Shown here piece by piece: positions 25,647-45,856 of a stretch of 64,000 bases of DNA. The notes under the pieces are model-generated. The model was given only the letters and a program-made list of their open reading frames with translations, searched no databases and had not been told where the DNA came from. Origin of the DNA: Roseibium sediminis (GTDB lineage: Bacteria > Pseudomonadota > Alphaproteobacteria > Rhizobiales > Stappiaceae); NCBI RefSeq assembly GCF_008711325.1, contig NZ_VXDB01000004.1:1-64000 (forward strand), in the 5' to 3' direction. Each line of letters opens with the position of its first letter. Position 1 is the first letter of the stretch. A program made the translations under genes and the position numbers.

Positions 25647-26645
25647 TTATCCCAGTAGCCAGATCCCGGCCATCACGAAGAGGGCGAGGAAGATGGTTTG
25701 GGTAACGACCATCCAGATCGCCGGGCCGCCGACTTCCAGCAGTTTCGGGATCGAGGTCTTCATGCCGACAGCGGCAATCGCCGCCAGCAGCGCCCAGCGG
25801 GAGATGTGACCTGCTGCATCGCGCAGAACTTCGGGGATCAAGCCAAAGGAATTGAGCGTGGCCAGAACAAGGAAGGCAACGACGAAAGTCGGGATCAGCG
25901 GTGGGCGCTGGGTGCCCGGTTCAACCTGGTTGCGCAAGATAAGCGCCGCAATGAAGACGACCGGAGCCAGAAGCGTTACGCGGATCAGCTTGACGAGTGT
26001 GGAAAGATCGCCCGTTTCTTCTGAAATGGAGAAGCCTGCACCCACCACCTGTGCAACATCGTGGATCGTGCCGCCGAGAAACACACCGGTTGCCTCTGTC
26101 GAGAGGCCAAGATTGGCGGTGATGATCGGGTAGATGATCATGGCGAGGGTGGAGAGCACGGTCACGGTGATCACCGTGAAGGCAAGGTCACGTTCCGCAT
26201 GTTCGCGCTTCGGCAAGATGGAGCCGATTGCCATTGCTGCCGAGGCGCCGCAAATGGCAACAGCGCCGCCCGACAGAAAGCCGAACAGCTTGTCCCGACC
26301 GAACAGCCCGCACACCAGCAGGGAAAAGCCGATTGTTGCGGCAACGCCGCCTGCAATGACAAGCAGCATCGGGAGCCCAAGTGTCTGCACCATTTCGATG
26401 CTGATGCGAACTCCCAGCAGGGCAACCCCCATGCGCAGCAGCGTCTTGCCGGAAAAGGCGATGCCTTCTGCGGTGCGCTGACCCTTCTCTGAAAGGAAAT
26501 TCAACGGCATTCCGAGAAGGATCGCCATCAACATGGCCGGGGCGCCGTAATGTTCATTCAGAAACTGGGCAGAAATCGCAACCAGTCCGGCAATAGCAAT
26601 GCCGGGGAAGAGGGCAGTGGCCTGCTCCTTGAAGGGGATCGTCAT
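25647..26645 (-). CDS. YeiH family (UPF0324) putative sulfate/sulfite exporter
   Basis: 332 residues with about ten membrane helices and the family blocks FSGKTLLRMGVALLGVRI, SGGAVAICGASAAMAI and LGGTIHDVAQVVGAG. YeiH proteins sit in the inner membrane; members near sulfonate genes have been proposed as sulfate exporters, but the substrate is not established. The gene ends 164 bp before metG, in a gap that contains a CCGGGG/CCCCGG hairpin at 25594-25613. It starts 9 bp after the stop of the MauG-like gene, so the two may be co-transcribed. Confidence 0.85.
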   Translation of the reverse strand: MTIPFKEQATALFPGIAIAGLVAISAQFLNEHYGAPAMLMAILLGMPLNFLSEKGQRTAEGIAFSGKTLLRMGVALLGVRISIEMVQTLGLPMLLVIAGGVAATIGFSLLVCGLFGRDKLFGFLSGGAVAICGASAAMAIGSILPKREHAERDLAFTVITVTVLSTLAMIIYPIITANLGLSTEATGVFLGGTIHDVAQVVGAGFSISEETGDLSTLVKLIRVTLLAPVVFIAALILRNQVEPGTQRPPLIPTFVVAFLVLATLNSFGLIPEVLRDAAGHISRWALLAAIAAVGMKTSIPKLLEVGGPAIWMVVTQTIFLALFVMAGIWLLG

Positions 26646-26654
26646 GGCAAAACT

Positions 26655-28049
26655 CTAATCGGGCTGGTCAACCGGCAGGCCGCTTGGGACGGACTGAGGG
26701 ACGCCAAAGGGAGGTGTCTTGAGGGAGGTGCCCGTTAGGGCATTGAGAAACGCGACAAGATCATCGATCTCACCTTGCGTCAAGGTCATCGCAGTAACGT
26801 CGCGTACGCTTCTCTGGCGCTCCATTTCGAAGCGGTCCTGCCACACGACAAAGTCGATGGCCTCAAGCCAGGGAGCAGCGGGCAGGGCTGCTGTTTGCGG
26901 TGTCCAGCTGGCCAATGCGGCATCAGGATCAAGGTGATGGCGAATGATGCCTTCCAGCGTCGGATAGGCTCCGTTGTGACCATAGGGGGCTGTCAACGCC
27001 ACATTGCGCAACATGGGTGTGCGGAAGCGATAGGCATCTTCCAGCCTGTCCGTTTCGCCCATCCGCCCTACATCGCGCACCATCGGATCGAAGTTGCGGG
27101 TACGTCCGGGGCCAAAAGGCGGTAGGCCAAGGGCGTGGAACTGCTGGTCGGACAAAAGCTTGCCCGAATGGCAGGAGGCGCAATTTGCCTTGCCGTAAAA
27201 GAGATCAAGCCCGCGTTTTTCAGCTTGGCTCAAGGCCTCCTCATCGCCTGCAAGATACGCATCGAAAGGGCTGTCATGGCTGGTCCATTCCAGCGCCATA
27301 AAGGCAGCCAATGCATTGGCGATTTCGGTGATTGTCACGTCCTCAGGTGACGTGATGTGGTCAAAGGCCTCGACAAACATGTCTCCATAGGCCGGGATGG
27401 TGCGCACGCGCTTGGCGAGTATGGGCCAGGCAGCATCAATCCGGTCGTGGATGGCGCCAGCGATCTCGTTTTCCTTCGGATTTCCAGCCATCTCGAACTG
27501 GGCAACAAGCGGGAAGATCGCCTGTGTGGCAAGGATCGAGTTGAAACCGGTCGGCAGCCACTCTTCGGCAGGCGAGTTGAAGCCGTTTTCGAAGGTGTCG
27601 GCAATGGACAGCCTTCCGTCGTGAAAGAAGACTTTCAGCTCCTTTGCGCCCAGATTCCAAAGGCCGGGCGCATTGCGCGGAATGCGCTTCCTGATCCTGC
27701 TGTCACCGGTACCAGCAGTTCTTGTCGGCCCAAGGCCAACGCCGCCTTCGCCAATGCCGAGCGACAGCCCGTCGGACGTCCCGAACTCCGGGTGGTGGCA
27801 TGTGGAGCAGGCAATATTCCTGTTGCCGGACAGGATCCTGTCGTAAAAGAGAAGCTGACCGATCCGGGCCTGCTTTTCATCAAAGGACAGGAAATCGTCA
27901 GCGGTCAGTGGCTCGGGCAGGGAGGTTGCCTGCGCCGAGGCGGCGGTCGCAAAGGCCGTCAGAACCAGTCCGAGGGAGAGTGCCTGCCAATGTCTGCCAT
28001 TCGTCTTCTTGCCGCGCTTTGCGTGCTTATGTGGCTCGCGCCGGCTCAT
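26655..28049 (-). CDS. Di-haem cytochrome c peroxidase / MauG family protein
   Basis: 464 residues with a long signal peptide (hydrophobic part LSLGLVLTAFATAASAQA). Two haem-binding motifs are visible, CSTCHH in the N-terminal half and CASCHS in the C-terminal half, with FGTSDGLSLG and LRNVALTAPYGHNGAYPTLEG typical of MauG/CcpA proteins. Such periplasmic enzymes reduce hydrogen peroxide or oxidise protein or small-molecule substrates. The only start that keeps the signal peptide is ATG 28049, which places the first 60 bp opposite the start of the divergent Sel1 gene. A short gap leads to yeiH. Confidence 0.82.
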   Translation of the reverse strand: MSRREPHKHAKRGKKTNGRHWQALSLGLVLTAFATAASAQATSLPEPLTADDFLSFDEKQARIGQLLFYDRILSGNRNIACSTCHHPEFGTSDGLSLGIGEGGVGLGPTRTAGTGDSRIRKRIPRNAPGLWNLGAKELKVFFHDGRLSIADTFENGFNSPAEEWLPTGFNSILATQAIFPLVAQFEMAGNPKENEIAGAIHDRIDAAWPILAKRVRTIPAYGDMFVEAFDHITSPEDVTITEIANALAAFMALEWTSHDSPFDAYLAGDEEALSQAEKRGLDLFYGKANCASCHSGKLLSDQQFHALGLPPFGPGRTRNFDPMVRDVGRMGETDRLEDAYRFRTPMLRNVALTAPYGHNGAYPTLEGIIRHHLDPDAALASWTPQTAALPAAPWLEAIDFVVWQDRFEMERQRSVRDVTAMTLTQGEIDDLVAFLNALTGTSLKTPPFGVPQSVPSGLPVDQPD

Positions 28050-28472
28050 GCGGAAATCGAAAAGGCGCGTGATCTGATGGAAGAAGGGCAGTTTGGCGAG
28101 GCAATGAAAGAGCTTTGGCCCGCTGCCCGATCCGGCAACGCGGATGCCGAGGAGCTGATCGGCGTGATGTATGCCATGGGGCTGGGTGTGGAACGCGACG
28201 ACGAGCGAGCCTTCGACTGGTATCTCAGGAGCGCCATGAAAGGGCATCCCGGCGCTCAGTCGGGCGTTGGATGGTATTACGAAATCGGACGGGGAATGCC
28301 CGCGCCGGATCTGACCCGCGCTTATATGTGGTACACGCTCTCTGCCATCGGAGGCGATCCGGATGCCGCCATCTCGCTGGAAGAGGTGGTCAAGAAGATG
28401 ACCAAAGCTGAGATCGACAAGGCGCATATTCTGGTCAACGACTACAAGGTCTGGATGTATCCATTCCGCTAG
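27990..28472 (+). CDS. Sel1-repeat exported protein
   Basis: 160 residues starting at ATG 27990 with a signal peptide (MSAIRLLAALCVLMWLAPAHA). The mature part carries two to three Sel1-type helical repeats (ADAEELIGVMYAMGLGVERDDERAFDWYLRSA; PGAQSGVGWYYEIGRGM...). Sel1 repeats bind partner proteins; this one acts in the periplasm or at the envelope. The 5' end overlaps the divergent MauG-like gene by 60 bp. GAGGGAGAG upstream could serve as ribosome site with a rather long spacing. Confidence 0.78.
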   Translation: MSAIRLLAALCVLMWLAPAHAEIEKARDLMEEGQFGEAMKELWPAARSGNADAEELIGVMYAMGLGVERDDERAFDWYLRSAMKGHPGAQSGVGWYYEIGRGMPAPDLTRAYMWYTLSAIGGDPDAAISLEEVVKKMTKAEIDKAHILVNDYKVWMYPFR

Positions 28473-28539: not shown

Positions 28540-29601
28540 TTACTTCACATCCGCAGCGCGGGCAGCGTTGATATCGCCTTCAGCCTTGGCAACTGCGTCG
28601 GTCAGGGCAGTGAAGATCTCGTCGCCGCGAGAGACATTTGCCTTGAACCACTCATAAACCGGAGCAGCAGCGTCCTTGAAGGCTGCTTTCTGGTCCGGTG
28701 TCGGAACATAAAGATCACCGCCACCGGCGACGAAGTCTTCATAGGCCTTGATGGACTTGCGCTTCGGCGAAGCGAAGGTCGCCTGCTGAAGAGCGTAGAA
28801 GCCATCGACGACAACACGGCGCATGTCTTCCGGCATGCCGGTGAACTTCTCGTTGTTCATCCACCACAGGGCGCCCATGTAGGCGTGGCCGTCGAGGGTG
28901 ACATACTGCAGGCCCGCATCCGGGAACTTCATGCCCATGATGTCGGTGATGCCGTTCTTGGAGCCTTCAACAACGCCTGTCTGCAGCGAGGTGAAGAGTT
29001 CCGGCCACGGAATCGGGGTCGGCGAAGCGCCAAGAGCCTTGACGAGTTCCTGCGGCAGATCGGCCACGACGGTCCGGATCTTGAGGCCGGCAAGGTCGGA
29101 CGGGTTCGCGACGCGGTGCTTGGTGTTGGCAAAGTTGCGCCAGCCGCCGGTATTGCCGATGGTCATCAGGCGAACGGCACCGCCGGAGTCTTCCAGAGCC
29201 ATGTCACGCATCTTGCGGGTGAAGTCACCCTGCAGGACGGCTTCGGCAATACGGTCATCGGCCATCAGGTAGGGAAGGTCGAGAACCTGCACATACGGGA
29301 AGATGCCCGACGCGCCGCCAGAGGTGGAGATATAGATGTCGATGGATCCGTCAGCGACGCCCTGAAGACACTCTGCACCGTTGGAGCAGAGCTGGGTGCC
29401 GATGAAGAGTTCCACGGCGATCGCACCGTTGGAGGCGGCTTCCACATAGTTCTTGAACACGACAAGGCCGTCATAGTCCTCGTCGTTCTCGTTGGAATTG
29501 GCTGTTGCGCGCAGCGTGTAGTCAGCTGCAACTGCGCTCAGCGACGAGCCAGCCAGCATGGCCGCGACCGTCAGGTATTTCAGTGTCGATTTGAGCATCA
29601 T
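28540..29601 (-). CDS. TRAP transporter solute-binding protein (DctP type), sulfonate locus
   Basis: 353 residues with a signal peptide (KYLTVAAMLAGSSLSAVA) and the TRAP binding-protein fold (LRATANSNENDEDYDGL..., GLKIRTVVADLPQELVKALGASPTPIPWPELFTSLQTG). It would capture the substrate in the periplasm. It is the last gene of the operon that starts with the LLM monooxygenase. If the pathway call is right, its ligand is sulfoquinovose or a sulfoquinovosyl glycoside; known relatives of this locus use ABC importers instead. Two adjacent ATG codons exist at the start; the first was used. Confidence 0.88.
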   Translation of the reverse strand: MMLKSTLKYLTVAAMLAGSSLSAVAADYTLRATANSNENDEDYDGLVVFKNYVEAASNGAIAVELFIGTQLCSNGAECLQGVADGSIDIYISTSGGASGIFPYVQVLDLPYLMADDRIAEAVLQGDFTRKMRDMALEDSGGAVRLMTIGNTGGWRNFANTKHRVANPSDLAGLKIRTVVADLPQELVKALGASPTPIPWPELFTSLQTGVVEGSKNGITDIMGMKFPDAGLQYVTLDGHAYMGALWWMNNEKFTGMPEDMRRVVVDGFYALQQATFASPKRKSIKAYEDFVAGGGDLYVPTPDQKAAFKDAAAPVYEWFKANVSRGDEIFTALTDAVAKAEGDINAARAADVK

Positions 29602-29624
29602 GGTTCCTCCCTTGAAATGCTCGG

Positions 29625-30917
29625 TTAATCCGCAAATCCCGTCAAACGCGGAATGGTCATGGAAATCGCGGGGATGTAGGTGACCAGGAAGATCACCAGA
29701 ATTTCCACGGCCAGAAACGGCAGGATCGCCTTGGCGATTGTTTCCACCCGTTCCTTGGAAACGGATGCTGCCACGAAAAGCACCAACCCCATGGGCGGTG
29801 TTGCCAGACCAATGGTCAGGTTCACGCTCATGATGATGGCGAAGTGGATCGGGTCGACGCCCAGATTGAGGAAGATCGGTCCAAGAATAGGGCCGAGAAT
29901 GATGATTGCCGGTCCCGCATCCAGAAACATGCCGACGATAAACAGCAGCAGATTGATCAGGAACAGCAGGATCAGCGGGTTTTCGGAGAGGCTGAGAATG
30001 AAAGCAGCCAGATGCTCCGGTGCATGGGAGAGCGACACCACCGTCTTGAAGGCCATCGCCGCGCCAACCAGCAGGAGAACCACGGCAGAGGTAATCCCGG
30101 CCCGGTTCAGTACTTCTGGAAGTTCTGACACCCTCAAGGTCTTCAAGACAAACAGGCCGATGAACAGCGCGTAGGCAACGGCGACCGCCGCAGCTTCCGT
30201 GGGAGTGAAAATCCCGCCGAGAATGCCGCCCAGAATGATCACCGGGGTCAGCAGAGGAAAGAAGGCCTTGAGGCTTGCCTGTCCACGTTCGTGCCATGTT
30301 GCCTTGCGGCTGGCGATCGGAAAGTCGTACTTGTCGGCCATGAACTTGACCATCAGCATCAGGCCGATGCCAACCATGACGCCGGGGACAATGCCCGCAA
30401 GAAACAGCGCAGCAACGCTTTCCCCCATCACATACGCATAGATGATCATGATGCCCGATGGTGGGATGATCGGTCCAATGACCGAGCTGGCTGCCGTAAT
30501 GGCAGCAGCAAAGCGGCGGGTGTAGCCCTGCTTTTCCATCGCCGGGATCAACATGGACCCGAGCGCGGACGTGTCCGCCACTGCAGAGCCGGACAATCCG
30601 GCAAACAGCATGGAGGACAGTACGTTCACATGGGCAAGGCCGCCGCGCAGGTGGCCCATCATGGCTTGCGAGAATTCGACAAGCCGCAATGTGATCCCGC
30701 CCTTGTTCATCAGCTCGCCAGCGAGCATGAAAAACGGAATCGCCATGAGAGGAAAGCTGTCCATCCCATTGTAAACATTGCGATAGAGGAGCGTGATGTC
30801 CTTCTCCTGTCCGTTCAGCCAAAGGAGCAGGCCCGGGGCTGCCAGAAGGCCGAAGAAGACCGGGAAGCCGATCAGGAGGAAGACGAGAAAGAGAGGTAGA
30901 AACCAGACCAGCATCAC
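29625..30917 (-). CDS. TRAP transporter large permease (DctM type)
   Basis: 430 residues with about twelve membrane helices. Family landmarks are GLSGSAVADTSALGSMLIPAM, SSVIGPIIPPSGIMIIYAY and PTEAAAVAVAYALFIG. It forms the inner-membrane sodium-driven channel with the small DctQ subunit. The start overlaps the dctQ stop by 4 bp, and the binding protein follows 23 bp later. Confidence 0.92.
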   Translation of the reverse strand: MMLVWFLPLFLVFLLIGFPVFFGLLAAPGLLLWLNGQEKDITLLYRNVYNGMDSFPLMAIPFFMLAGELMNKGGITLRLVEFSQAMMGHLRGGLAHVNVLSSMLFAGLSGSAVADTSALGSMLIPAMEKQGYTRRFAAAITAASSVIGPIIPPSGIMIIYAYVMGESVAALFLAGIVPGVMVGIGLMLMVKFMADKYDFPIASRKATWHERGQASLKAFFPLLTPVIILGGILGGIFTPTEAAAVAVAYALFIGLFVLKTLRVSELPEVLNRAGITSAVVLLLVGAAMAFKTVVSLSHAPEHLAAFILSLSENPLILLFLINLLLFIVGMFLDAGPAIIILGPILGPIFLNLGVDPIHFAIIMSVNLTIGLATPPMGLVLFVAASVSKERVETIAKAILPFLAVEILVIFLVTYIPAISMTIPRLTGFAD

Positions 30918-31504
30918 TCAGCCCCCGCCATTTCCTCACCCTCGATCACGGGGAGTCTATCCTTGCCGCCGAGCATTTGCACGATGGACCTGAGAACCAG
31001 TTCCACATTGACCAGCACCAGAAGGCCGATGCCGACCAGCAGGGACGACATCATCCAGCTGCGCGGAACGCGCATCCACTGGGAAAAATCGAAGCTTGTC
31101 GGAATGTAGAGCGAAGCCGTCGCGAACTTTCCACCAAAGCCCGTAACTTCGGACCAGCCGATGCGGAAGGCAACGACGAGCACGAGCAGGCTGAGGCTCA
31201 ACAGTAGAACCTGAAGCAACTGCGCCAGTTTGGTCGGCAGAAGGTGGCTGACCATGTCGATTGCGACAAACCCGCTGGCCCGCATCGCCGTTGGAGCCAT
31301 AAGCCCCGCAGACCACAGCATGCAGAAGCGCGAGGCTTCGTCAGGCCAGGGCAGGGCGTTGTTCAAGACATAGCGGAAAAACACCTGGACGAGGATCGCA
31401 ACGACCATAAAGGCGACAGCGACCACACCGATCGCCCGCCCGATACGCAACAGAAATGCGTTCACTCCTCCAAGCAGCGAAACCACTGCCAGCAATGCCC
31501 CCAT
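30914..31504 (-). CDS. TRAP transporter small permease (DctQ type)
   Basis: 196 residues with four membrane helices in the DctQ arrangement (FFRYVLNNALPWPDEASRF..., ASGFVAIDMVSHLLP). It pairs with the large permease encoded next. It begins 48 bp after the flavin reductase gene in the same direction, so the transporter is likely part of the monooxygenase operon. Confidence 0.88.
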   Translation of the reverse strand: MGALLAVVSLLGGVNAFLLRIGRAIGVVAVAFMVVAILVQVFFRYVLNNALPWPDEASRFCMLWSAGLMAPTAMRASGFVAIDMVSHLLPTKLAQLLQVLLLSLSLLVLVVAFRIGWSEVTGFGGKFATASLYIPTSFDFSQWMRVPRSWMMSSLLVGIGLLVLVNVELVLRSIVQMLGGKDRLPVIEGEEMAGAE

Positions 31505-31552
31505 ATGGGCTCCTCCTCATGAACGGGGCTCAGCGAGCCGCCGTCTCCGTCC

Positions 31553-32068
31553 TTATTTCGGCGCGATCTGCCCGAATTTTCCAGCAAAAAAGGTCAGCGC
31601 GTCTCCCTCGCGCATTTCGGCCCGCAGGACCCGGCCCAGAACGATCAGGTGATCGCCCCCCTCATAGGCCGCTACCCGCTGGCACTCGAAGCGGGCAAGG
31701 CAATGCTCGATCAAGGGCACGCCATGCTCGTTCTTTTCCAGATCCAGTCCGTCAAACGCGTGGGCATTCTTCGCAAACCCGTGGCAAACCGACGACTGCT
31801 CATTGCACAGCACATGGATTGCATAGTGTTCCGCCTGTTCGAAGTAGCGGAACCGGCGCGAGCCCTTGTCAGGCGCCCACAGGACCAGCGGCGGATCCAG
31901 CGACACGGACGAAAAGCTGTTCGCCGTGATGCCGACAGGGCCGTCCTCCGACATGGCGGTGACAATGGTGACGCCTGTCGCAAACCGGCCAAAGGCATCA
32001 CGCAGCAAACGCGTGTTGTCGGACTGGGGCTGAAACGTGACGGGATGGTTCGGGCTCTGCATGTTCAT
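31553..32068 (-). CDS. Flavin reductase (FMN reductase component), SmoA-like
   Basis: 171 residues of the flavin reductase-like FMN-binding split barrel (LRDAFGRFATGVTIVTA..., GITANSFSSVSLDPPLVLW) with the GGDHLIVLG segment typical of NADH:FMN oxidoreductases. It would supply reduced FMN to the LLM monooxygenase two genes upstream. Its ATG shares one base with the stop of the aldo/keto reductase gene. Corresponds in order and type to SmoA of the Agrobacterium sulfoquinovose monooxygenase cluster. Confidence 0.85.
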   Translation of the reverse strand: MNMQSPNHPVTFQPQSDNTRLLRDAFGRFATGVTIVTAMSEDGPVGITANSFSSVSLDPPLVLWAPDKGSRRFRYFEQAEHYAIHVLCNEQSSVCHGFAKNAHAFDGLDLEKNEHGVPLIEHCLARFECQRVAAYEGGDHLIVLGRVLRAEMREGDALTFFAGKFGQIAPK

Positions 32069-32958
32069 TACGGAACCTCTTTTCCAAGGGCTGCCTCGTA
32101 GAGACGGAACCAGGACGGACGATCCAGCTTCACCTTGAGGGCGTCCGATATCCGTGCGATCCGCTCAATATTGTTGGTACCAAGCACCGGTATGATCCCC
32201 GCCGGATGGGCCAACAGGAACGCAACTGCAACAGCCGCCCTGTCGACACCCGATTGGCGTGCAAGATCATCCAGCACCTCGGCCACCTTGCCGCTTCCGG
32301 TCATCAGCGAGCCGCCGCCAAGCGGCGACCAGGCCATCAAATGCGTCCCCAGACGCTGATGGAAGGCAAGATCCCCATTTGTGAAGGGCGAGATTTCCGA
32401 AAGGCTGATCTCGATCTGGTTGGTCGCCAGCTTCGTGGTCATGGCCGATTGCAGCAACTCCCAGTCCCACGGACGGAAGTTGGAAACGCCGACATTGCGC
32501 ACCTTGCCGCTCTTGACCACCTCATCCAGCGCCGCACCGGTTTCCTTGTGGTCCATGAGCGGATCGGGACGGTGGATCAAAAGCAGATCGATCGTCTCGA
32601 TGTTCATTTCGGAAAGGGATGCTTCAACCGACCTCAGAATGTGCGCGCGGGAAGTGTCGTAGTATTTGCCCGGCGCATCCGCATAACGACCGACCGGCGC
32701 GATGATGTCGCATTTGGTGACGATCTCCATCTTGTCTCGCAGGGCCGGGTTGGCCTTCAGGGCCGCCCCCAAAACACGTTCGGCTTCATAGCCGCCATAA
32801 ATGTCGGCCTGATCGAAAGTGGTGATCCCCTGATCAAGGCAGGTCTGGATCTTGCGTTCCACATGGGCCGCGGACGTATCGGTATCCTCAGCCAGTCGCC
32901 ACATTCCGTAGACGAGGCGGCTCATTTCAAGTGTCGGGGACAGCGAGATGCGTTGCAT
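32068..32958 (-). CDS. Aldo/keto reductase, YdhF/SmoB-like (probable 6-oxoglucose reductase)
   Basis: 296 residues of the aldo/keto reductase barrel. The catalytic set is visible as Asp49, Tyr54, Lys82 and His129 (FDQADIY, VTKC, LLIHRPDP). The pattern MQRISLSP, YGMWRLAEDTD and CDIIAP resembles YdhF and the SmoB enzyme, which reduces the 6-oxo-glucose left after desulfonation of sulfoquinovose. It lies between the monooxygenase and flavin reductase genes with one-base stop/start overlaps on both sides. ATG 32958 was chosen for that overlap; the upstream open frame is not family-like. Confidence 0.82.
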   Translation of the reverse strand: MQRISLSPTLEMSRLVYGMWRLAEDTDTSAAHVERKIQTCLDQGITTFDQADIYGGYEAERVLGAALKANPALRDKMEIVTKCDIIAPVGRYADAPGKYYDTSRAHILRSVEASLSEMNIETIDLLLIHRPDPLMDHKETGAALDEVVKSGKVRNVGVSNFRPWDWELLQSAMTTKLATNQIEISLSEISPFTNGDLAFHQRLGTHLMAWSPLGGGSLMTGSGKVAEVLDDLARQSGVDRAAVAVAFLLAHPAGIIPVLGTNNIERIARISDALKVKLDRPSWFRLYEAALGKEVP

Positions 32959-34112
32959 CAGCGGCGAACTCCATTTCCAAGCGGTGTTGCGGGCGTATGT
33001 GCCGGTACACGACCATACGCATGAGGCAGCGAACAGGTTTTCAGATTTGGCAAAACAAGTCTGCCGAAGTGGTCGGCCTCGTCCAGATGCGGGTATCCCG
33101 AGAAGATAAAGGCCCGAATGCCCATCTTCTGATATGCCTCGATCTTGCTCATCACCTGATCTGCGGAACCGACCAGAGCCGCGCCGCAGCCCGAGCGGGC
33201 CCGGCCAACGCCAGTCCACAAATGCGGCTCGATGAAACCGGATTCATCCGCGATCTCGCGGTTTTTGGACTGATGGCTTACGCCGAGCGACTTGGCATCC
33301 AGCGCGCGTTCGCGAATGCTGGTGCCTTGGGCGTCGTCCAGCTTGGAGACGATGTAATCTGCATATTCCCTTGCTTCGGCTTCCGTGTCGCGAACGATCA
33401 TGTGAACGCGCAGACCGTAGTCGAGCGTGCGGCCATATCGGTCAGCCACGGCGTGAACCGCCTTCATCCGGCCTTCCAGTTCCTCGATCTTTTCCGGCCA
33501 CATCAGATAGACGTCACAATGCTGGCCGCACAGTTCCAGTGCATCCGGAGAGTAGCCGCCGAAATAGAGGAGGGGGCCGCCGGTCTGATAAGGACGAGCC
33601 GGGTCCGTGGTCAGGCCCTTGAAGGTGTAGACTTCGCCTTCATAGTTGATTTCATCCTGGGTCCAGGCCTGCTTCAGGATTTCGACGACTTCTCGCGAGC
33701 GCTGGTAGCGGTACTTGCTGTCGGCCTGCTCGCCGGGAAAGTCGGAAGAGATGATATTGACCGTCAGGCGGCCTTCCAGCATGTGATCCAGCGTGGCAAT
33801 GGTCCGCGCCAGCATGATCGGCTGCATCTCGCCACAGCGCACGGCCGCAAGAAGATTGATCTTGTCGGTGATCGGCGCGCAGCCGGCCACGAAGGACAGC
33901 GTATCCTGGCCAACCTGATAGGACGACGGGCACAGGATGTTGCGGAAGCCGAGGCTTTCGGCCTTCTTCACGATGCTGGAGCAATGGGCCCATGAGGACC
34001 GAAGGTCTCCGTCCGGCACGCCCAGAAACTGGTAATCGTCCGAACAAAGCGCTGCAAACCAGGACACTTCAGCTGCATCCAGATCCGGTGATGTGACCGG
34101 TACGACCGTCAT
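32958..34112 (-). CDS. LLM-class FMNH2-dependent monooxygenase, probable sulfoquinovose monooxygenase (SmoC-like)
   Basis: 384 residues of the bacterial luciferase-like/SsuD family: SLGFRNILCPSS near the N-terminus, TIATLDHMLEGRLTVNIIS in the barrel and, at the C-terminus, ALVGSADQVMSKIEAY and GYPHLDEADHFGRLVLP. Such enzymes use FMNH2 and oxygen to break a C-S bond and release sulfite. The reductase pair that follows (aldo/keto reductase and flavin reductase) is exactly the set of the sulfo-ASMO pathway, so sulfoquinovose is the best candidate substrate; simple alkanesulfonates are the alternative. A GGGAGGAAG site precedes ATG 34112. First gene of the operon. Confidence 0.82.
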   Translation of the reverse strand: MTVVPVTSPDLDAAEVSWFAALCSDDYQFLGVPDGDLRSSWAHCSSIVKKAESLGFRNILCPSSYQVGQDTLSFVAGCAPITDKINLLAAVRCGEMQPIMLARTIATLDHMLEGRLTVNIISSDFPGEQADSKYRYQRSREVVEILKQAWTQDEINYEGEVYTFKGLTTDPARPYQTGGPLLYFGGYSPDALELCGQHCDVYLMWPEKIEELEGRMKAVHAVADRYGRTLDYGLRVHMIVRDTEAEAREYADYIVSKLDDAQGTSIRERALDAKSLGVSHQSKNREIADESGFIEPHLWTGVGRARSGCGAALVGSADQVMSKIEAYQKMGIRAFIFSGYPHLDEADHFGRLVLPNLKTCSLPHAYGRVPAHTPATPLGNGVRR

Positions 34113-34160
34113 TGAAACTTCCTCCCGAAGGATCGCCTTTTTTTCTTGCGTATCACCCGC

Positions 34161-34187
34161 ATTGATGTAGATCAATAGTGTATCAAT
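34161..34187. promoter_or_regulatory. Candidate GntR operator between smoC-like and gntR genes
   Basis: ATTGATGTAGATCAAT (34161-34176) is an inverted repeat of ATTGAT/ATCAAT with a 4-bp spacer, and a third ATCAAT half-site ends at 34187. It lies in the 103-bp divergent gap, well placed to control both operons. Confidence 0.6.
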
Positions 34188-34215
34188 TTTTTCTGCCCCA
34201 GCGGAATGGGTAAGG

Positions 34216-34941
34216 ATGTCAGAAGCCAACAGAAATCCGAATGCGCTGCCGATCTATGTCCAGATCAGCGAGTTGTTGATCCGTGACATTGCAGCCGGTC
34301 GCCTGATCAACGGAGAGCGTCTTCCACCCGAGAGGGAGATGGCCGCTCAGCTCGGCATTTCCGTCGGCACGTTGCGCAAGGCCTTGGCGGACTTGACGAA
34401 AAGAGGCCTTCTGGAGCGTATCCAAGGGTCGGGAAACTACATCCGCCATGGCGGGCGGACCGAAAGCGTCTACGGCATGTTCCGGCTGGAGCTGCATTCT
34501 GGTGGCGGTTTGCCGAAAGCAACTTATCTGGATGTCTCACGAGCGCAGATCCCGGAGAAACTGGTGACCCATTGGCCGGAGAAGTTCGGACTTGCCAATT
34601 GGGGGACCCGCATCCGCCGCCTTCGCTTCCTGAACACCACGGTGATCGCGGTTGAGGAAATCTGGCTTGATGGCAGCGCCGGGGAGGTGATGACCCACCT
34701 CCTGTCTGATTCCCTTTACCGCTATTACCAGAAGCAGCTTGGGTTCTGGATCACACGGGCGGAGGACCGGGTCGGGATCGGCATGACACCCGATTGGGCG
34801 CCGCCGGAGTTCCCGCTCTCGCGCGGCGCACCGACAGGCTACATCGAACGGCTGAGCTGGTCGGATCGGGCAGAGCCGATCGAGTTTTCAAAGACATGGT
34901 TTGACACGGACAAGGCGCTTTATGTGCAGCGCCTCAAATAG
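34216..34941 (+). CDS. GntR family regulator (HutC/UTRA type)
   Basis: 241 residues: N-terminal winged helix (LPPEREMAAQLGISVGTLRKALADLTKRGLLERIQGSGNYI) and a C-terminal UTRA-type ligand domain. It diverges from the monooxygenase operon and is followed 9 bp later by the Gfo/Idh/MocA gene. It probably represses both transcripts until a pathway sugar is present. The ATTGAT/ATCAAT sites just upstream are the likely targets. Confidence 0.9.
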   Translation: MSEANRNPNALPIYVQISELLIRDIAAGRLINGERLPPEREMAAQLGISVGTLRKALADLTKRGLLERIQGSGNYIRHGGRTESVYGMFRLELHSGGGLPKATYLDVSRAQIPEKLVTHWPEKFGLANWGTRIRRLRFLNTTVIAVEEIWLDGSAGEVMTHLLSDSLYRYYQKQLGFWITRAEDRVGIGMTPDWAPPEFPLSRGAPTGYIERLSWSDRAEPIEFSKTWFDTDKALYVQRLK

Positions 34942-34950
34942 GAGATCTGG

Positions 34951-36072
34951 ATGTCCGCGACAGTAAACTACGGCATCATCGGCTGCGGGATGATGGGGCA
35001 GGAGCATCTGCGCAATATTGCGCTTCTGGATGGCACGCGCATACGGGCCATCTTCGAGCCGGATGCGGAAATGGCAGCGATTGCCAAGACGTTTGCGCCT
35101 GAGGCCGAAATGGTCGCGTCCCTTGATGCCCTGCTCGACATCGCCGATCTGGACTGCCTTGTCATTGTCAGTCCGAACCACTGCCATGTCGGCCAGATGG
35201 AGGAAATCCGCCGCAAGCGGCCCTTGCCGTTGCTGGTGGAAAAGCCGCTCTTCACCAGCCCCGAAGACGAGGCCCGGGTCGCAGCCTTTGCAAAGTCCTA
35301 TCCCGCCCCGGTATGGGTCGCGATGGAATACCGCTACATGCCGCCAATCGCCGCTCTCGTGGAGCAGGTAGCGGAGGCAACCGGCGGGGTGCGCATGCTC
35401 ACGATCCGCGAGCACCGCTTTCCGTTCCTGCCCAAGGTCGGCGACTGGAACCGCTTCAACCGCAACACCGGCGGCACCTTTGTCGAGAAATGCTGCCACT
35501 TCTTCGATCTCATGCGGCTGATCATGCAATCAGAACCGGTCCGCGTGATGGCATCCGCCGGGCAGGCGGTCAATCATCTCGATGAGACCTACAACGGCGA
35601 AGTTCCGGACATTCTCGACCATGGTTACGTTCTGGTCGATTTTGAAAACGGTGCCCGCGCCATGCTCGAACTCTGCATGTTCGCCGAAGGCTCCCGGTAT
35701 CAGGAAGAGGTCAGTGTCGTCGGGCCGAAGGGCAAGATCGAGGCCCTTGTCCCCGGTCCCGGTCGTTTCTGGCCCGATCATCTGGGTGAGCCACCGGTGC
35801 CGCAGGTCATTGTCAGCCCGCGTGATCCCAAAGGCCCCCGGCAAATTGACGTCCCGGTTGATCCCGAATTGCTGGAGGCCGGAGACCACAACGGGTCAAC
35901 CTTCTACCAGCATCAGCAGTTCCTTGCCCTAGTCCGCGGCGAGCGGGCGTCTCCGGAAGTCAGTCTCGAGGATGGCCGCAAATCCGTCGCCATGGGCCTC
36001 GCCGCCCAGGAATCCGCCCGCACAGGTCAGGCCGTGCTCTTGTCACCCAACCGCCTGACCTCGGCGGCTTGA
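34951..36072 (+). CDS. Gfo/Idh/MocA family enzyme, possible NAD-dependent sulfoquinovosidase
   Basis: 373 residues: N-terminal NAD-binding Rossmann domain (YGIIGCGMMGQEHLRN, EKPLF) and C-terminal alpha/beta domain with KVGDWNRFNRNTGGTF, EKCCHFFDLMRL and GDHNGSTFYQHQQFL. The family covers sugar dehydrogenases and NAD-dependent glycosidases. Since it sits in the same locus as a sulfo-ASMO-type set, and family GH188 sulfoquinovosidases of this fold are known beside such clusters, release of sulfoquinovose from its glycerol glycoside is a reasonable guess. A simple sugar dehydrogenase is the alternative. GGAG lies before ATG 34951. The last 126 bases of the gene are duplicated at 36890-37015. Confidence 0.75.
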   Translation: MSATVNYGIIGCGMMGQEHLRNIALLDGTRIRAIFEPDAEMAAIAKTFAPEAEMVASLDALLDIADLDCLVIVSPNHCHVGQMEEIRRKRPLPLLVEKPLFTSPEDEARVAAFAKSYPAPVWVAMEYRYMPPIAALVEQVAEATGGVRMLTIREHRFPFLPKVGDWNRFNRNTGGTFVEKCCHFFDLMRLIMQSEPVRVMASAGQAVNHLDETYNGEVPDILDHGYVLVDFENGARAMLELCMFAEGSRYQEEVSVVGPKGKIEALVPGPGRFWPDHLGEPPVPQVIVSPRDPKGPRQIDVPVDPELLEAGDHNGSTFYQHQQFLALVRGERASPEVSLEDGRKSVAMGLAAQESARTGQAVLLSPNRLTSAA

Positions 36073-36136
36073 GGCGTACCTTAAAATCTCTGTCCCTCAC
36101 CCTAACCCTCTCCCAACGGGAGAGGGGACTGGATCG
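35947..36136. repeat. 190-bp direct repeat, copy A
   Basis: Covers the 3' end of the Gfo/Idh/MocA gene, its stop and a downstream palindrome (CCTCTCCCAACGGGAGAGG). Copy B at 36890-37079 has the same length and differs at about nine positions. The two copies enclose 753 bp holding a phage-type repressor gene. Confidence 0.9.
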
Positions 36137-36311: not shown

Positions 36312-36722
36312 TTATTTGCGTCTGATTGCCATATGTTTGTAGGTGCTCTTTAGCAGGTGGGTGAACCTATCAGACGGCATATATCCGCCGTTTTCCAACT
36401 CTTCCTCTATATCGCGGGCCTCCTTTTCCGCCGCTTCCCAAAGCTCGGGATCATAACCGACGGCTTTTCCTGTATCTCCTGCTTTGCTGTTTGAATGCGT
36501 TGTGGCTTTTGTGGTGGGCACGTCGTCGTCCTCTGACAACAACCACGCATAATCAACGTTAAAAAAATCAGCGTAACGCCTTGCTGAGTGCAGGCGTGGG
36601 CTCCGGTCGCCGTTCTCATGGCTGATATATGTCTGGATTGGGATACCCATAGCGCGGGCTGCATCCGTTGCGGTTTCGTAACCCTCTTTAACGCGGGCTT
36701 CCTGTAGCTTCTTGTGATTCAT
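36312..36722 (-). CDS. XRE family (phage-repressor type) regulator
   Basis: 136 residues with an N-terminal Cro/CI helix-turn-helix (TATDAARAMGIPIQTYISHENGDRSPR ... YADFFNVDYAWLLSE) followed by an acidic tail. This is the small-repressor type found in prophages and integrative elements. It is AT-rich and enclosed by 190-bp direct repeats. Upstream (36759-36837) are repeated GCAAAAAGCAC and TAATGCG motifs that look like its operators. No integrase, excisionase or structural gene remains beside it, so it may be the last gene of a decayed element. The 239-bp gap between the Gfo gene and this gene holds repeat copy A and AT-rich sequence without a gene. Confidence 0.8.
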   Translation of the reverse strand: MNHKKLQEARVKEGYETATDAARAMGIPIQTYISHENGDRSPRLHSARRYADFFNVDYAWLLSEDDDVPTTKATTHSNSKAGDTGKAVGYDPELWEAAEKEARDIEEELENGGYMPSDRFTHLLKSTYKHMAIRRK

Positions 36723-36889: not shown

Positions 36890-37079
36890 GCGTCTCCGGA
36901 AGTCAGTCTCGAGGACGGCCGCAAGTCTGTCTCCATGGGCCTCGCCGCCCAGGAATCCGCCCGCACAGGTCAGGCCGTGCTCTTGTCAACCAACCGCCTG
37001 ACCTCGGCGGCTTGAGGTGTATCTAAAAATCTCTGTCCCTCTCCCTAACCCTCTCCCAACGGGAGAGGGGACTGGATCG
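36890..37079. repeat. 190-bp direct repeat, copy B, with a truncated Gfo/Idh/MocA 3' end
   Basis: Same 190 bp as 35947-36136 at about 95% identity. It carries 41 C-terminal codons of the Gfo/Idh/MocA gene in an open frame ending at TGA 37013-37015, but no start, so this part is a gene fragment. Differences include both silent and amino-acid-changing bases. From 37080 to 37400 I see no supportable gene. Confidence 0.88.
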
Positions 37080-38018: not shown

Positions 38019-39296
38019 TCACGATCCGAAGATATCGGCGGTGATGCCGTTGTACCAGCCGACGGATTCTTCGTAGGTCTGCTGGCGCAGGGCTGCGTCT
38101 TCGCCGGTCTGGCTGATGAAGGTGGACGTTGAGGCGATCTTTTCTTCGGTCGGGGCGTATTGTGCGCCAACCTTCACGCCGTCATTGGTCTCGATAAGGC
38201 TCCAGCAGGTGTTGGAGTATTTCGCCGGGAAGACGCGGGATCCGGTGAGGTCACCACGAATTGCCATGGCGGCAACCTTGGCCTGACTGTTGGCCGAGAA
38301 GCCGGACTTCGGCATGTCGCCCGCGATACAGGCGTCACCGATGACGAAGACGGTGTCGTCGGCCTTGGAACGCATGGAGGCCGGGTCGATCGGGCAGAAG
38401 CCGGTTTCGTTGGTCAGGCCGGCCTTTTCGGCGATCATGCCTGCCTTTTGTGCCGGAATGACGTTCACGAGGTCGCCCTTGAACGTGTCCAGATCGGTTT
38501 CGACTTCGCCGGTTGCCGGATCGACTTTCACCAGACCGCCATGGACGTCCGGGCCGTACCACTCGACCATGCCCGGATAGTATTTCGCCCAACCTTCCTG
38601 GAAGAGAGCCTGCTTGGAGAACTTCTCCTTCGGGTCGATGATGATGATCTTGCTGTCGGTGAAGCCCTTTTCCTTGAAGACATGCGCGAACATGGAGACG
38701 CGCTCGTAAGGTCCAGGAGGGCAGCGATACGGGTTCGGCGGTGCGACCATAACGACGTTCTGGCCGTTTTCCAGCGCATCCAGCTTGGCCTTGAGCAGCT
38801 GTGTCTGCGCGCCCGCTTTCCAGGAGTGGGGCATGATCTCGGCAGCTTCTGCGGAATAGCCCGGAACGCTGTCATAGATCAGATCGATGCCCGGAGACAC
38901 GATCAGGCGATCATAAGGCACCTTGGAGCCGTCGGCCATCACGACAACCTTGGCATCGCGATCCACCATCATGGCCATGCCGTTGATGACGGTGATGCCA
39001 TAGTTCGAGGCCAGCTTGTCATAGCTGTGCGTGATGGATTCAAATGTGCGGTAGCCGCCCAGATAAAGGTTCGAAAAGAAGCAGGTCGTGTAAGTCGGGT
39101 TGGCTTCGATCAGCGTGACATCAATGTCGCCGCCGCTGTCCTTGGCAATATAACGAGCTGCGGTCGCACCACCGGCACCGCCGCCGATCACCACGGCGCG
39201 GGGCTTGCCTTGTGCACGAGCATAGAACGGCATTGCGAGTGAGGCGACACCTGCGCCTGCCAGCAAACCGAAACTGCGACGGGTCAAGTTTGGCAT
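38019..39296 (-). CDS. soxF: SoxF, flavocytochrome c sulfide dehydrogenase flavoprotein subunit
   Basis: 425 residues with a twin-arginine signal (NLTRRSFGLLAGAGVASLA) and an FAD-binding motif VVIGGGAGGATAARYI. Cysteines in YRCPPGPYER and GFCPIDP are placed like the redox-active pair of FCSD flavoproteins. SoxF oxidises sulfide in the periplasm and passes electrons to the SoxE cytochrome, encoded just upstream. It is the last gene of the sox operon, followed by a strong terminator. Confidence 0.93.
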   Translation of the reverse strand: MPNLTRRSFGLLAGAGVASLAMPFYARAQGKPRAVVIGGGAGGATAARYIAKDSGGDIDVTLIEANPTYTTCFFSNLYLGGYRTFESITHSYDKLASNYGITVINGMAMMVDRDAKVVVMADGSKVPYDRLIVSPGIDLIYDSVPGYSAEAAEIMPHSWKAGAQTQLLKAKLDALENGQNVVMVAPPNPYRCPPGPYERVSMFAHVFKEKGFTDSKIIIIDPKEKFSKQALFQEGWAKYYPGMVEWYGPDVHGGLVKVDPATGEVETDLDTFKGDLVNVIPAQKAGMIAEKAGLTNETGFCPIDPASMRSKADDTVFVIGDACIAGDMPKSGFSANSQAKVAAMAIRGDLTGSRVFPAKYSNTCWSLIETNDGVKVGAQYAPTEEKIASTSTFISQTGEDAALRQQTYEESVGWYNGITADIFGS

Positions 39297-39348
39297 TATT
39301 TGCTTCCTTCCTTCTAAAACCTTGGCTGCGTTTTTCTCTCCTTACCCG

Positions 39349-40128
39349 TTACTTGGGATCAAGGGAACCGAAATAGGCAGCCAGAGCGGCGATCTCCTCG
39401 TTTCCGAGGTTGAGGGTCATGTTCTGCATGACCTGATTGGTCCGTATGTTGGATTTGTATTCGAACAGGGCACGGATGAAGGCCTCGTTCGGCCAGCCGA
39501 CAATCGACGGAATGCCGTCCGCATGGCCTGACAACTGATGACAGGTCACACATTCCGATGACAGGTATTCCCCATATTCCGCATCGCCCTCGATCTGCAT
39601 GGCCGCCGAGCCAATTTCCGCTCGGGCGGGAGCTGCAGCGGTCGGGTCGACAGAGGGGGCGGCGACGGATTGCGCCTTGAGGTAGGCAATTATCGCGGTC
39701 CGGTCTTCCGGCTTCTTCATGCCGAGATAGGACATGCGTGTGCCGGGTACGAAGGCGCGGGGCTTGGCGAGATATTGATCCAGACTTGCCTCATCCCAGA
39801 CAAGCCCGTCTTCTCCCTTTGCCTTCATGGCGTTGGAATACTTGAAGCCGTCGATTGATCCGGCCACACGCCCGAACAGGCCATCAAGATGCGGTCCAAC
39901 ACCATTACGGGCGCCTTCGCCTATCTGGTGGCAGGCCTTGCAGGCCTTGTAGAGCTTTTCGCCTTGCTGGATATCACCCGCGAAGGTGGAGCCGGAAGTG
40001 AGGGCGCCAATTGCAGTCAGTCCGGCAAAGATCAACGCGCGTGTTGTTTGCGGGAATGAAGAGCGCACACGGTTGGAGGAAGGGACGCGCGGCCGCCAGA
40101 TTGCCTGAGTATAAATCTGAAGGCGCAT
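39349..40128 (-). CDS. soxE: SoxE, di-haem cytochrome c
   Basis: 259 residues with two haem motifs, CKACH and CVTCH. The first domain is a cytochrome c2-type unit closely similar to the N-terminal domain of SoxD (shared blocks GPxL, GRxAG, DGFKYS, VWDEA). It serves as the electron-accepting partner of SoxF in the periplasm. The N-terminus from ATG 40128 has a long basic stretch before a hydrophobic export segment (LIFAGLTAIGALTSGSTFA), so the true start may be later; GGGAGAAC lies before 40128. Confidence 0.88.
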   Translation of the reverse strand: MRLQIYTQAIWRPRVPSSNRVRSSFPQTTRALIFAGLTAIGALTSGSTFAGDIQQGEKLYKACKACHQIGEGARNGVGPHLDGLFGRVAGSIDGFKYSNAMKAKGEDGLVWDEASLDQYLAKPRAFVPGTRMSYLGMKKPEDRTAIIAYLKAQSVAAPSVDPTAAAPARAEIGSAAMQIEGDAEYGEYLSSECVTCHQLSGHADGIPSIVGWPNEAFIRALFEYKSNIRTNQVMQNMTLNLGNEEIAALAAYFGSLDPK

Positions 40129-40160
40129 TCCATCGTTCTCCCGTGGTCTGGCTCGGCTAG

Positions 40161-40194
40161 AGCATCGGGCGTTTTGTTGGAAGCGCCCGATGCT
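40161..40194. other. Intercistronic hairpin soxD/soxE
   Basis: AGCATCGGGCG (40161-40171) and CGCCCGATGCT (40184-40194) form a perfect 11-bp stem in the 155-bp gap between soxD and soxE. With no T-run on the minus strand, it is more likely an mRNA processing or stability element than a terminator. Confidence 0.55.
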
Positions 40195-40283
40195 GATCTA
40201 AGGACGAAGGCTGAGGGTGTATCGCCGCTGGCCACACGTGTAAATACGGATAGATTTGCTAAGGTGTGGATGCCGAGGCGCGT

Positions 40284-41390
40284 CTAGTCGACCGCGCCAA
40301 CACCTGCATCGTCATCGCCGCCATCTTCCGGGGTCACATCCAGAACCCGCGCACGCATGGTGATTTTCACCTCATCTGCCTTGCAGTTTGTCATGCAGGG
40401 CTCGGACTTCGATGCGTAGTGAGGTTCCTCGGAGCGGTCATCCATGAAGAAGTTTTCCTCATTGGGAAGACGAACTTCAAGGAAGTTCTCCTTGGACAGC
40501 ACGAACTCCTCATCCGTCACCACGTCATTGAGATAGAGGAGATAGGCGGTCAGCGCGTAAACATCATCATCGGACATGGAGCGGGCATTGCCGAAGGGCA
40601 TTGCGCGGCGAACATAGTCGTATACCGTGGAGAGATACGGCCAATAGGACCCAATCGTCTTTTCCGGGCGGTCGTCCTTCAGCGAGTCGTGCCCACCTGC
40701 CAGAACCGGCCAGCGTCCGACGCCCTCGCCAAAGTCTCCATGACAAACCGCGCAGTTGTCGGCAAACAGCACTTCGCCATCGGCAACGCTGCCCGATCCT
40801 TCCGGAAGACCCTGACCGTCCGGACGAACGTCAATGTCCCAGGCGGCGATTTCATCCTGCGTGGCAACGCGGCCAAGCTTGAAGATGCCGCTTTCGCGCA
40901 GTGAGGAAGAGGAGGCCGCATCAGGTGTTGCTGCAGCCTCGGCAGTCTGCGCCGGTGCCGGCTCCGCAGGAGCCTGCGAACTGTCAGCGGGAGCAGAGGA
41001 AGAGAAGGTCGCCAGATACGCGATTACATTCTCCAGATCCTCATCCTTCTTGAGGCCTGCAAAGGCCATTTTTGTGCCTTTGACCACATCTTTCGGCTTG
41101 ATCAGGAAGGCAGTCATGGTGGCTTCATCCCAGACCATGCCGCCTTCGCCAGCCTCGATCATGCCTTTGGAATACTTGAAACCATCCACTGTCCCGGCGG
41201 TACGCCCAATGACGTCGTTCAGCTGCGGCCCGGCCTTGTTCGTCGCGCCGTCTCCGACGGCGTGGCAGGCCTTGCATTTCTTGAAGACCTTTTCGCCGGC
41301 ATCTGCATCGCCGGCCTGAGCTGCACCGACCATCAGGCCTGTGGTGAAAACGGCGGCAGAAAGGGCGAGAGACTTAACCAACTTCGACAT
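40284..41390 (-). CDS. soxD: SoxD, di-haem cytochrome subunit of sulfur dehydrogenase SoxCD
   Basis: 368 residues with a signal peptide ([23 protein letters not shown]), two cytochrome domains with CKACH and CAVCH, and an Ala/Pro-rich linker between them. SoxD takes electrons from the molybdenum subunit SoxC during oxidation of the SoxY-bound sulfane sulfur. ATG 41390 overlaps the soxC stop by 17 bp. Near the C-terminus the CMTNC pair may form a disulfide. Confidence 0.92.
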
Positions 41391-42657
41391 TTTCAACCGC
41401 CCCGTTCTTTTGGACATACCAAGTCTGGATGCCGTTGTTGTGGTAGATCGAATTCTCCCCGCGAGCGGCGCGAAGTTCATTCTTGGTTGGCTGATAGAAA
41501 CCGTGTTCGTCCATCGCACGTGACTGGAGCAGCATTTCAGAACCGTCCCAGTCGATGTCGAGATAGAACCGGTGCAGGGACTTGGAGAGGCTCGGGCCGT
41601 CGAGGCGGGCCGTCTTCCAGTTCCTCCCGCCATCCAGAGAAACGTCCACACGGGTGATGCGGCCATTGCCGGACCACGCGAGACCGGAAATCACCATCGG
41701 GCCCTCGCCGTGAGAAATCGGCATTTGCGGGCTGGGGGAAGTGATGACGGACTTCGGATCCATGACCCAAGTAAAGCGCCTAGCCTTGCCGTTTGCCAGA
41801 AGGTCCGTGTATTTCGAGGTTTCCTCGCGGTGATGCCACGGCTCGTCGCCCACTTCGAGACGGCGCAGCCACTTGACCCACATGTTGCCTTCCCAGCCGG
41901 GGACGGCGAGGCGAAGCGGGTAGCCCTGTTCGGGGCGCAGCGCTTCGCCGTTCATTTTCCACGCGACCAGACAGTCATCCAGCGCCTTTTCCATCGGGAT
42001 GGATCGGGTCATGGCCGAGGCATCCGCCCCTTCAGGCATGACCCACTTGCCGTTGGTCTTGACGCCAGCTTCTTCCAGCAATGTCTTCAGCTTGACGCCG
42101 GTATACATGACGTTGTGGACCATGCCGTGGGTGAACTGGCAGCCATTGAGCTGGGACCCACGCCACTCCATGCCACCATTGGCCGCGCATTCAAGGAAAT
42201 AGACATGGTTCTCACGCGGGAAGCGCTTGAGATCCTCCATGGTGAAGACGAGGGGTGTGTCCACTAGACCATTGATCATCAGCCGATGATCCTGCGGACG
42301 GATCTGGGCAACGCCGCCATGGTGGCGTTCAAAGCACAGCCCGTTCGGGGTGATGATCCCGTCCAGTTCGTGCAAGGGCGTGAAGTTGATGGACGATACG
42401 GCATCAGCTGTCAGCCACGGAACGTTGCGGCGAACAACATCCGCCTCGAATTCCGACGGCAGGCCATAGGGAGCTGCATCAACGCCGTCACCAAGATACC
42501 GGTTCCAGTCCTGAATCTCGGTGATCAGCGGGTCGCCTTCTGCACGGGCTCCCGACGCAGCAACACCGGCAACAGCAGCCCCACCTGTGGCAAGACCGGC
42601 CTTGAGAAGCGACCGCCGGGAGAGGGAGGGAGATCCCTTGTCCTTTGTCTCAGTCAT
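41374..42657 (-). CDS. soxC: SoxC, molybdenum subunit of sulfur dehydrogenase
   Basis: 427 residues with a twin-arginine signal ([16 protein letters not shown]) and a sulfite oxidase fold. The molybdenum-ligand cysteine is Cys157 in [10 protein letters not shown]; the dimerisation domain follows ([16 protein letters not shown]). With SoxD it removes six electrons from the SoxY-linked sulfane, which allows full thiosulfate oxidation without sulfur globules. Presence of soxCD marks the Paracoccus-type pathway. Confidence 0.94.
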
Positions 42658-42683
42658 GAATGTGTCCTCAGGTCTTCTTAAAT

Positions 42684-44381: not shown

Positions 44382-44526
44382 TCAAGCCTCCGGTCAATCG
44401 GCGTGCCTTCAGACGACATGGGAGGTCAGGCACAACTCACCCTTTGACGCTGAAGCATTCTCCGCGCCCGGATCAAGATACCGATAAAAATTCAATTACT
44501 TGGTGGGCAATCTTGCCCGGTTTTAT

Positions 44527-44551
44527 GGTGCGGCGGACATGCCGCCGCACC
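44527..44551. other. Intercistronic hairpin soxA/soxB
   Basis: GGTGCGGCGG (44527-44536) and CCGCCGCACC (44542-44551) form a perfect 10-bp G+C-rich stem, loop 5. It lies 28 bp past the soxA stop in the 198-bp soxA-soxB gap. No T-run follows on the minus strand; partial termination or mRNA stabilisation of the XYZA part is possible. Confidence 0.6.
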
Positions 44552-44579
44552 GATACCGGCCCATGGGCCGATAAGCTGA

Positions 44580-45443: not shown

Positions 45444-45497
45444 ATCGTCTCCTCCCGATTTGAGAAAATGGCGGGCGCAAGACCCGCCAACTGGCCG

Positions 45498-45824: not shown

Positions 45825-45856
45825 GATTGCGTTTCCTTCTTGTCCGGTCTCGTCTC

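Follow-up and report, generated by a model that had tools for sequence, protein, structure and literature searches.

Which compound is taken up and degraded by a bacterium that encodes a flavin-dependent sulfonate monooxygenase, a sugar reductase, an NAD-dependent glycosidase-like protein and a tripartite ATP-independent periplasmic (TRAP) importer side by side? The question is raised by a locus at positions 28540-36072 of the window, a stretch of 64,000 nucleotides from Roseibium sediminis (assembly GCF_008711325.1, contig NZ_VXDB01000004.1, positions 1 to 64,000). Sulfoquinovose (SQ) is a sulfosugar of plants and algae, which marine bacteria recycle. Its production is put at approximately 10 billion tons per year (Kaur et al. 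2023, PMC10755693). We put the probability that this locus imports and desulfonates SQ at roughly 0.87, a reading that rests on homology, on the order of the genes, on synteny and on active-site residues that are conserved. Its eight genes are:

28540-29601, minus strand: DctP, TRAP solute-binding protein, the proposed receptor for SQ or sulfoquinovosyl glycerol (PF03480)
29625-30917, minus strand: DctM, TRAP large permease, with a GTG start (PF06808, 406 bits; TIGR00786, 433 bits against a cut-off of 268)
30914-31504, minus strand: DctQ, TRAP small permease (PF04290)
31553-32068, minus strand: SmoA-type flavin reductase (PF01613), overlapping the SmoB gene by one base
32068-32958, minus strand: SmoB, 6-dehydroglucose reductase of the aldo/keto reductase type (400 bits to 7bby)
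32958-34112, minus strand: SmoC, SQ monooxygenase of the luciferase-like class, dependent on reduced flavin mononucleotide (FMNH2; 701 bits to 7olf and 7oh2)
34216-34941, plus strand: GntR/UTRA regulator, a probable local repressor (PF00392 and PF07702)
34951-36072, plus strand: SqgA, predicted GH188 NAD-dependent sulfoquinovosidase of the Gfo/Idh/MocA fold (566 bits to 8zn9)

Six of these genes are read on the minus strand, SmoC (34112) being the first and DctP (28540) the last, with the GntR/UTRA and SqgA genes diverging from them across a gap of 103 bases. Single-base overlaps join the monooxygenase gene to that of the aldo/keto reductase, and the latter to that of the flavin reductase, while the DctQ and DctM genes overlap by four bases. 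A Pfam scan agreed with the folds of all eight proteins. The positions, order and one-base overlaps described by a first-pass annotation, made from the sequence alone, were thus borne out by open reading frame coordinates and Pfam. The window contained no tRNA genes, and no Rfam matches at the gathering threshold.

The desulfonation enzymes

SmoC is identical at 298 of 383 positions (77.8%) to each of 7olf and 7oh2, both of which we take to be SmoC structures. SmoB is closer to 7bby, presumably itself a SmoB, than to Escherichia coli YdhF (1og6, 212 bits). The flavin reductase matches 4xhy at 161 bits and the NCBIfam FerA model at 214 bits, under the cut-off of 260, and its SmoA-type label is based on PF01613 and the overlap with the SmoB gene. 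The joint presence of SmoB and SmoC homologues has been used to recognise the SQ monooxygenase pathway (sulfo-SMO, also called sulfo-ASMO; PMC13372026); in this locus they are encoded by adjacent genes, at the high scores listed above, with the PF01613 flavin reductase beside the monooxygenase. Homology and synteny therefore support the catalytic core of monooxygenase, SmoB-like reductase and flavin reductase that the first-pass annotation had recognised.

This core has to be weighed against a general role for the monooxygenase in obtaining sulfur from alkanesulfonates or methanesulfonate, as for SsuD or MsuD, to which the sugar enzymes would be incidental. SmoC belongs to the same superfamily as these proteins, and its two closest PDB entries, 7olf and 7oh2, carry the names methanesulfonate sulfonatase and alkanesulfonate monooxygenase. 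However, it reaches just 245 bits against the SsuD model TIGR03565, which has a cut-off of 518, and matches SsuD itself (1nqk) at 183 bits, with 117 of 357 positions identical. Furthermore, SmoB was matched in every one of the 80 best-matching SmoC loci of at least 554 (the named loci, which lean to close relatives because they are the best-matching ones). We therefore consider a general sulfonate-scavenging role very improbable. A comparison of active sites found identity at six of the eight places that we take to form the SsuD active site, corresponding to W205, R235, H237, R306, Y340 and H342 of SmoC.

The sulfoquinovosidase

The Gfo/Idh/MocA protein is most similar to 8zn9, the nearest solved chain, with which it shares 244 of 363 positions, and scores 359 and 357 bits to the characterised enzymes FlSqgA (8qc2) and ArSqgA (8qc3), being 50% identical to the latter. 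The residues contacting the substrate in ArSqgA, and their roles, have been described (PMC10755693). The triad binding the sulfonate, Arg166, Leu170 and Lys172, is present as R156, L160 and K162 in the Roseibium protein, and the further substrate contacts Lys107, Tyr136, Glu189, His193 and His321 as K98, Y127, E179, H183 and H313. All eight are invariant across 90 aligned sequences. There are GH188 subgroups in which a tyrosine occupies the position of Leu170 (PMC11465081); the Roseibium enzyme has leucine.

The shared fold, and a weak match to the inositol dehydrogenase 4hkt (64 bits), would also be expected of an ordinary sugar dehydrogenase, but the scores to 8zn9 and the characterised SqgAs are far higher, and the sulfonate triad and the five other contacts are invariant; we accordingly give that alternative very little credence. 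Hence the Gfo/Idh/MocA protein is, judged by its sequence, a GH188 NAD-dependent sulfoquinovosidase, SqgA, as the first-pass annotation had supposed and as the active-site alignment that it suggested bears out.

A GH31 sulfoquinovosidase elsewhere in the genome was considered but is not supported, as the sole GH31 match, on another contig, is closer to alpha-glucosidase II (262 bits) than to YihQ (108 bits). No GH31 match was found in the 80 named loci using this non-sulfoquinovosidase protein as bait, with which a distant GH31 sulfoquinovosidase might escape detection.

Occurrence of the locus

The complete set of eight genes was found in 59 of the 80 named loci, and as all 59 keep the same order and orientation, the arrangement is not a product of chance. 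Considered singly, GntR was matched in 80/80, SmoA in 78/80 and SqgA in 78/80; in one of the 80 the upstream sequence is too short for SqgA to be sought, and of the other 79 just one, L023, lacks the gene. The closest SmoCs among these loci (91% identical) come from Labrenzia and Roseibium records. In a sample of relatives, 34 of 37 genomes of the host genus, including that of the window, had a SmoC match, although that in G022 was a fragment only; none was found in G017, G024 or G031.

Thirty plasmid records had a SmoC-like match, of which seven were examined. Loci of the eight-gene type are carried by plasmids of Rhizobium SL42, Ruegeria TM1040, Paracoccus seriniphilus and Salipiger; the stretches examined around the SmoC-like genes of Spirosoma (55% identity) and Rhizobium WSM4643 (51%) had no other genes of the locus. 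In a quick tree of the window SmoC and those of L003-L082, with many weak forks, Roseibium sequences (Stappiaceae) are mixed with those of Tritonibacter, Phaeobacter and other Rhodobacterales, and this mixing suggests that the locus may have been transferred between orders.

A wider sample comprised 387 genomes of the class, of which 23 had a SmoC-like match at E <= 1e-100: nine at 75% identity or more, including that of the window, and 14 at 49-53%. Twenty regions were compared, consisting of the eight others of the closer group, G057 from the sample of relatives, and 11 of the 14 in the distant group. SqgA was matched in nine of the 11 distant regions (43-50% identity) and SmoB likewise in nine (37-42%), with a tenth, weak SmoB match (25%). 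Therefore the linkage of SmoC, SmoB and SqgA reaches far. A GH31 match was present in one distant region (L158). TRAP genes were found near SmoC in the closer group only, filling the importer slot in five of nine closer regions and in none of the 11 distant ones; among the closer regions, L151 has ABC (ATP-binding cassette) genes on the same side of SmoC, and L147 stops at a contig end.

The importer

The TRAP transporter is complete, its three subunits (PF03480, PF04290 and PF06808) being encoded by adjacent genes. The corresponding slot, after SmoA, could be compared in 74 of the 80 named loci, those in which SmoC is followed by 5.2 kb or more, six being dropped as short. It holds DctM and DctP in 58 of the 74, a sugar ABC importer of the type in L020 in seven (L020, L022, L039, L070, L071, L077 and L079, with Pfam content read on L020 alone), and both in none. 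When the ABC rows were placed on a quick tree of 95 SmoC rows, their distribution needed two changes, against 6.8 in shuffles. The DctP of the window is 67-90% identical to those of other SmoC loci, against 30% or less to its paralogues in the same genome (19 further matches), and 148 of its 353 residues are invariant in the 62 DctPs of SmoC loci, its own included. Distances between these 62 sequences were correlated with those between the SmoCs (Mantel r 0.57). R176, placed using what we take to be the TRAP arginine motif, corresponds to the generic TRAP arginine, which is kept.

Synteny, slot exchange and the DctP identities thus support SQ or its glycerol glycoside as the predicted substrate. 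We consider it likely that DctPQM is a dedicated TRAP importer for SQ or sulfoquinovosyl glycerol, and that in related SMO operons an ABC importer takes its place in the same position. The first-pass annotation had also proposed an importer for an SQ-type ligand, and the synteny and slot exchange favour this part of its reading; the novelty it had attached to the arrangement mostly does not stand, as TRAP genes in this position are common in the named loci.

A different possibility is that the enzymes do constitute an SQ pathway, beside which the TRAP transporter is merely a frequent neighbour, importing another sulfonate or a sugar acid. DctP has no close solved relative, the best being 4p47 (123 bits), and a Foldseek search of its model returned general TRAP receptors, with receptors for isethionate, sialic acid and sugar acids among the fold neighbours. 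The absence of TRAP genes from the distant SmoC regions, and of both importer types from some slots, would also fit a loose association. However, the TRAP and ABC importers are mutually exclusive in the one slot, and the DctP is far closer to those of other SmoC loci than to any paralogue of its own genome. We therefore regard a merely neighbouring transporter as unlikely, and a dedicated importer of SQ-type ligands as the better reading.

Several observations nevertheless weigh against the proposed function, whether of the enzymes or the importer. Firstly, the other two of the eight SsuD places are changed in SmoC, H11 to C23 and C54 to G68. Secondly, of the nine ArSqgA residues checked, the eight described above are identical but the ninth maps unclearly: Glu163, cited in a comparison with GH109 (PMC10755693), falls on a valine in the ArSqgA numbering that fits R166, L170 and K172, with the adjoining Glu164 kept as E154 in the window. 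Thirdly, SmoC is not always accompanied by the remaining genes. The locus L116 (10001-14310), on a Qingshengfaniella alkalisoli plasmid, has SmoC, GntR and TRAP genes but lacks SmoB, SmoA and SqgA over the stretch examined, and L144 and L145, from one genus, have SmoCs 83-85% identical to that of the window, and GntR, without matches to SmoB, SmoA or SqgA, or a smo-type TRAP, in the stretches examined. Fourthly, the correlation of DctP with SmoC is lower than those of SqgA (0.70), SmoB (0.80) and GntR (0.80), which were calculated from 90-94 sequences rather than 62. Fifthly, the AlphaFold2 model of DctP is fair (predicted local distance difference test score of 74.5), with residues 152-160 and 198-223 below 50, and these low-confidence parts make the pocket unreadable. 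Finally, the linkage of importer and pathway is not strict, since nine of the 74 slots have neither a TRAP nor an L020-type ABC importer. Eight of these nine (all but L060) were partly examined. An ABC permease and an alpha-amylase gene are found in L080, an ABC ATPase, encoded by the opposite strand, in L023, and a LacI-type regulator in L078; in L011 and L027, SmoA is followed directly by a YeiH match; and no importer was seen among the genes read in L018, L041 and L074.

The divergent promoter region

The gap between the two arms contains one further feature:

34161-34176, no strand: palindrome of 16 bases, a candidate operator

The motif TTGA-N6-TCAA occurs in 53 of 78 intergenic regions, compared to 0.15 expected by mononucleotide shuffling, which leaves kinship uncorrected; three of 81 regions were dropped for length. 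Read against what we take to be the GntR and FNR consensus motifs, the palindrome fits a GntR operator better than an FNR-type site because its centre is largely conserved. The GntR/UTRA protein would probably repress both arms through this shared promoter region of 103 bases.

Neighbouring genes

The block may extend below 28540 to two neighbours, the first of them conserved:

26655-28427, minus strand: MauG-type di-haem peroxidase open reading frame, start uncertain (PF03150)
25647-26645, minus strand: YeiH-type putative sulfate exporter (PF03601; TIGR00698, 130 bits, under the cut-off of 232.6)

Peroxidase and YeiH-type genes likewise lie past DctP in Ruegeria TM1040 and in the Roseibium loci L006, L007, L012 and L014, and across the 80 named loci a peroxidase match was found downstream of DctP in 47 and a YeiH-type match in 18. 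Between DctP and the YeiH-type gene are a TPR-like gene and the peroxidase gene, as in TM1040, which has one extra small gene. The TPR-like gene, beside the peroxidase within 25647-28472, takes its name from the annotated TM1040 locus.

A sox thiosulfate-oxidation cluster begins approximately 2 kb past sqgA (38019-46306), encoding a sulfide-dehydrogenase-type flavoprotein, cytochromes, SoxC (639 bits, cut-off 420), SoxB (875 bits, cut-off 550), SoxA and SoxY. Its membership of the module was not supported, as not one of the 80 named loci, some of which were too short to tell, had a match to SoxC or SoxF, approximately 4-9 kb from SmoC in the window. At the end of sqgA there is a direct repeat of 190 bases (35947-36136 and 36890-37079; 95% identical, ungapped), the second copy duplicating the 3' end of the gene and 60-odd bases downstream. 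The 753 bases between the copies have a GC content of 0.475, against 0.62, include an HTH_3 gene (36312-36722, minus strand) and had no match in the other loci compared, the only copy being in the same genome (L168). The repeat and these 753 bases look like the remnant of an element that may have inserted at the end of sqgA.

Discussion

The route that we infer for the Roseibium host would begin in the periplasm, where DctP would catch sulfoquinovosyl glycerol or free SQ, which DctQM would then bring inwards. In the cytoplasm, SqgA would cleave the glycoside to SQ and glycerol through a transient oxidation at C3 by NAD+. SmoA would supply FMNH2 to SmoC, which would use O2 to split the C-S bond of SQ, releasing sulfite and 6-dehydroglucose, and SmoB would reduce the latter to glucose. 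The sulfite would probably leave through the YeiH-type exporter or be oxidised.

The core of SmoC, SmoB and flavin reductase is common to the sulfo-SMO systems of Agrobacterium and Novosphingobium aromaticivorans. The Agrobacterium cluster includes a GH31 sulfoquinovosidase, whereas the Roseibium locus has a GH188 enzyme. Uptake differs too, as Agrobacterium employs an ABC transporter for SQ glycerol (PMC9594981), rather than a TRAP importer. The first-pass annotation had suggested that this combination may be an undescribed variant, a claim that for the most part does not hold, because GH188 genes are already reported in sulfo-SMO clusters without GH31, and as near-universal in the SMO clusters of the marine Roseobacter clade (PMC10755693), in which SMO is elsewhere called prevalent (PMC13372026). 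These clusters share with the Roseibium locus the SMO core, SqgA and the lack of GH31, and differ in their host, Roseibium belonging to the Stappiaceae; nor is the whole arrangement rare, as most named loci hold the same eight genes. Hence the combination of SMO and GH188 has been described before, and Roseibium adds another genus to it. The dioxygenase pathway (sulfo-ASDO or SDO) likewise converts SQ to sulfite and 6-dehydroglucose, and thence to glucose (PMC12890257), but its SqoD is an iron- and 2-oxoglutarate-dependent dioxygenase where the Roseibium locus has a flavin monooxygenase. The same article refers to work from 2025 on GH188 in Roseobacteraceae.

Of all parts of the locus, the TRAP importer has been tested least, and its substrate is a testable prediction. 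ABC transporters have been named for SQ (PMC12421959), and the TRAP substrate is the only element for which the literature searched, outside which the main Roseobacter SQ papers lie, contained no report linking SQ uptake to such an importer. The receptor of the isethionate TRAP transporter, IseP (8t9t and 8te9), is a sulfonate-binding DctP, but its ligand is a small C2 sulfonate, and it is 22-23% identical to the Roseibium DctP in the Foldseek alignment. The uptake of SQ is little studied. Were the TRAP transporter to carry SQ or its glycosides, an ion gradient, rather than ATP, would drive this import in many marine bacteria using the SMO pathway, and the sequence of DctP would serve to mark SQ utilisation in metagenomes from the sea.

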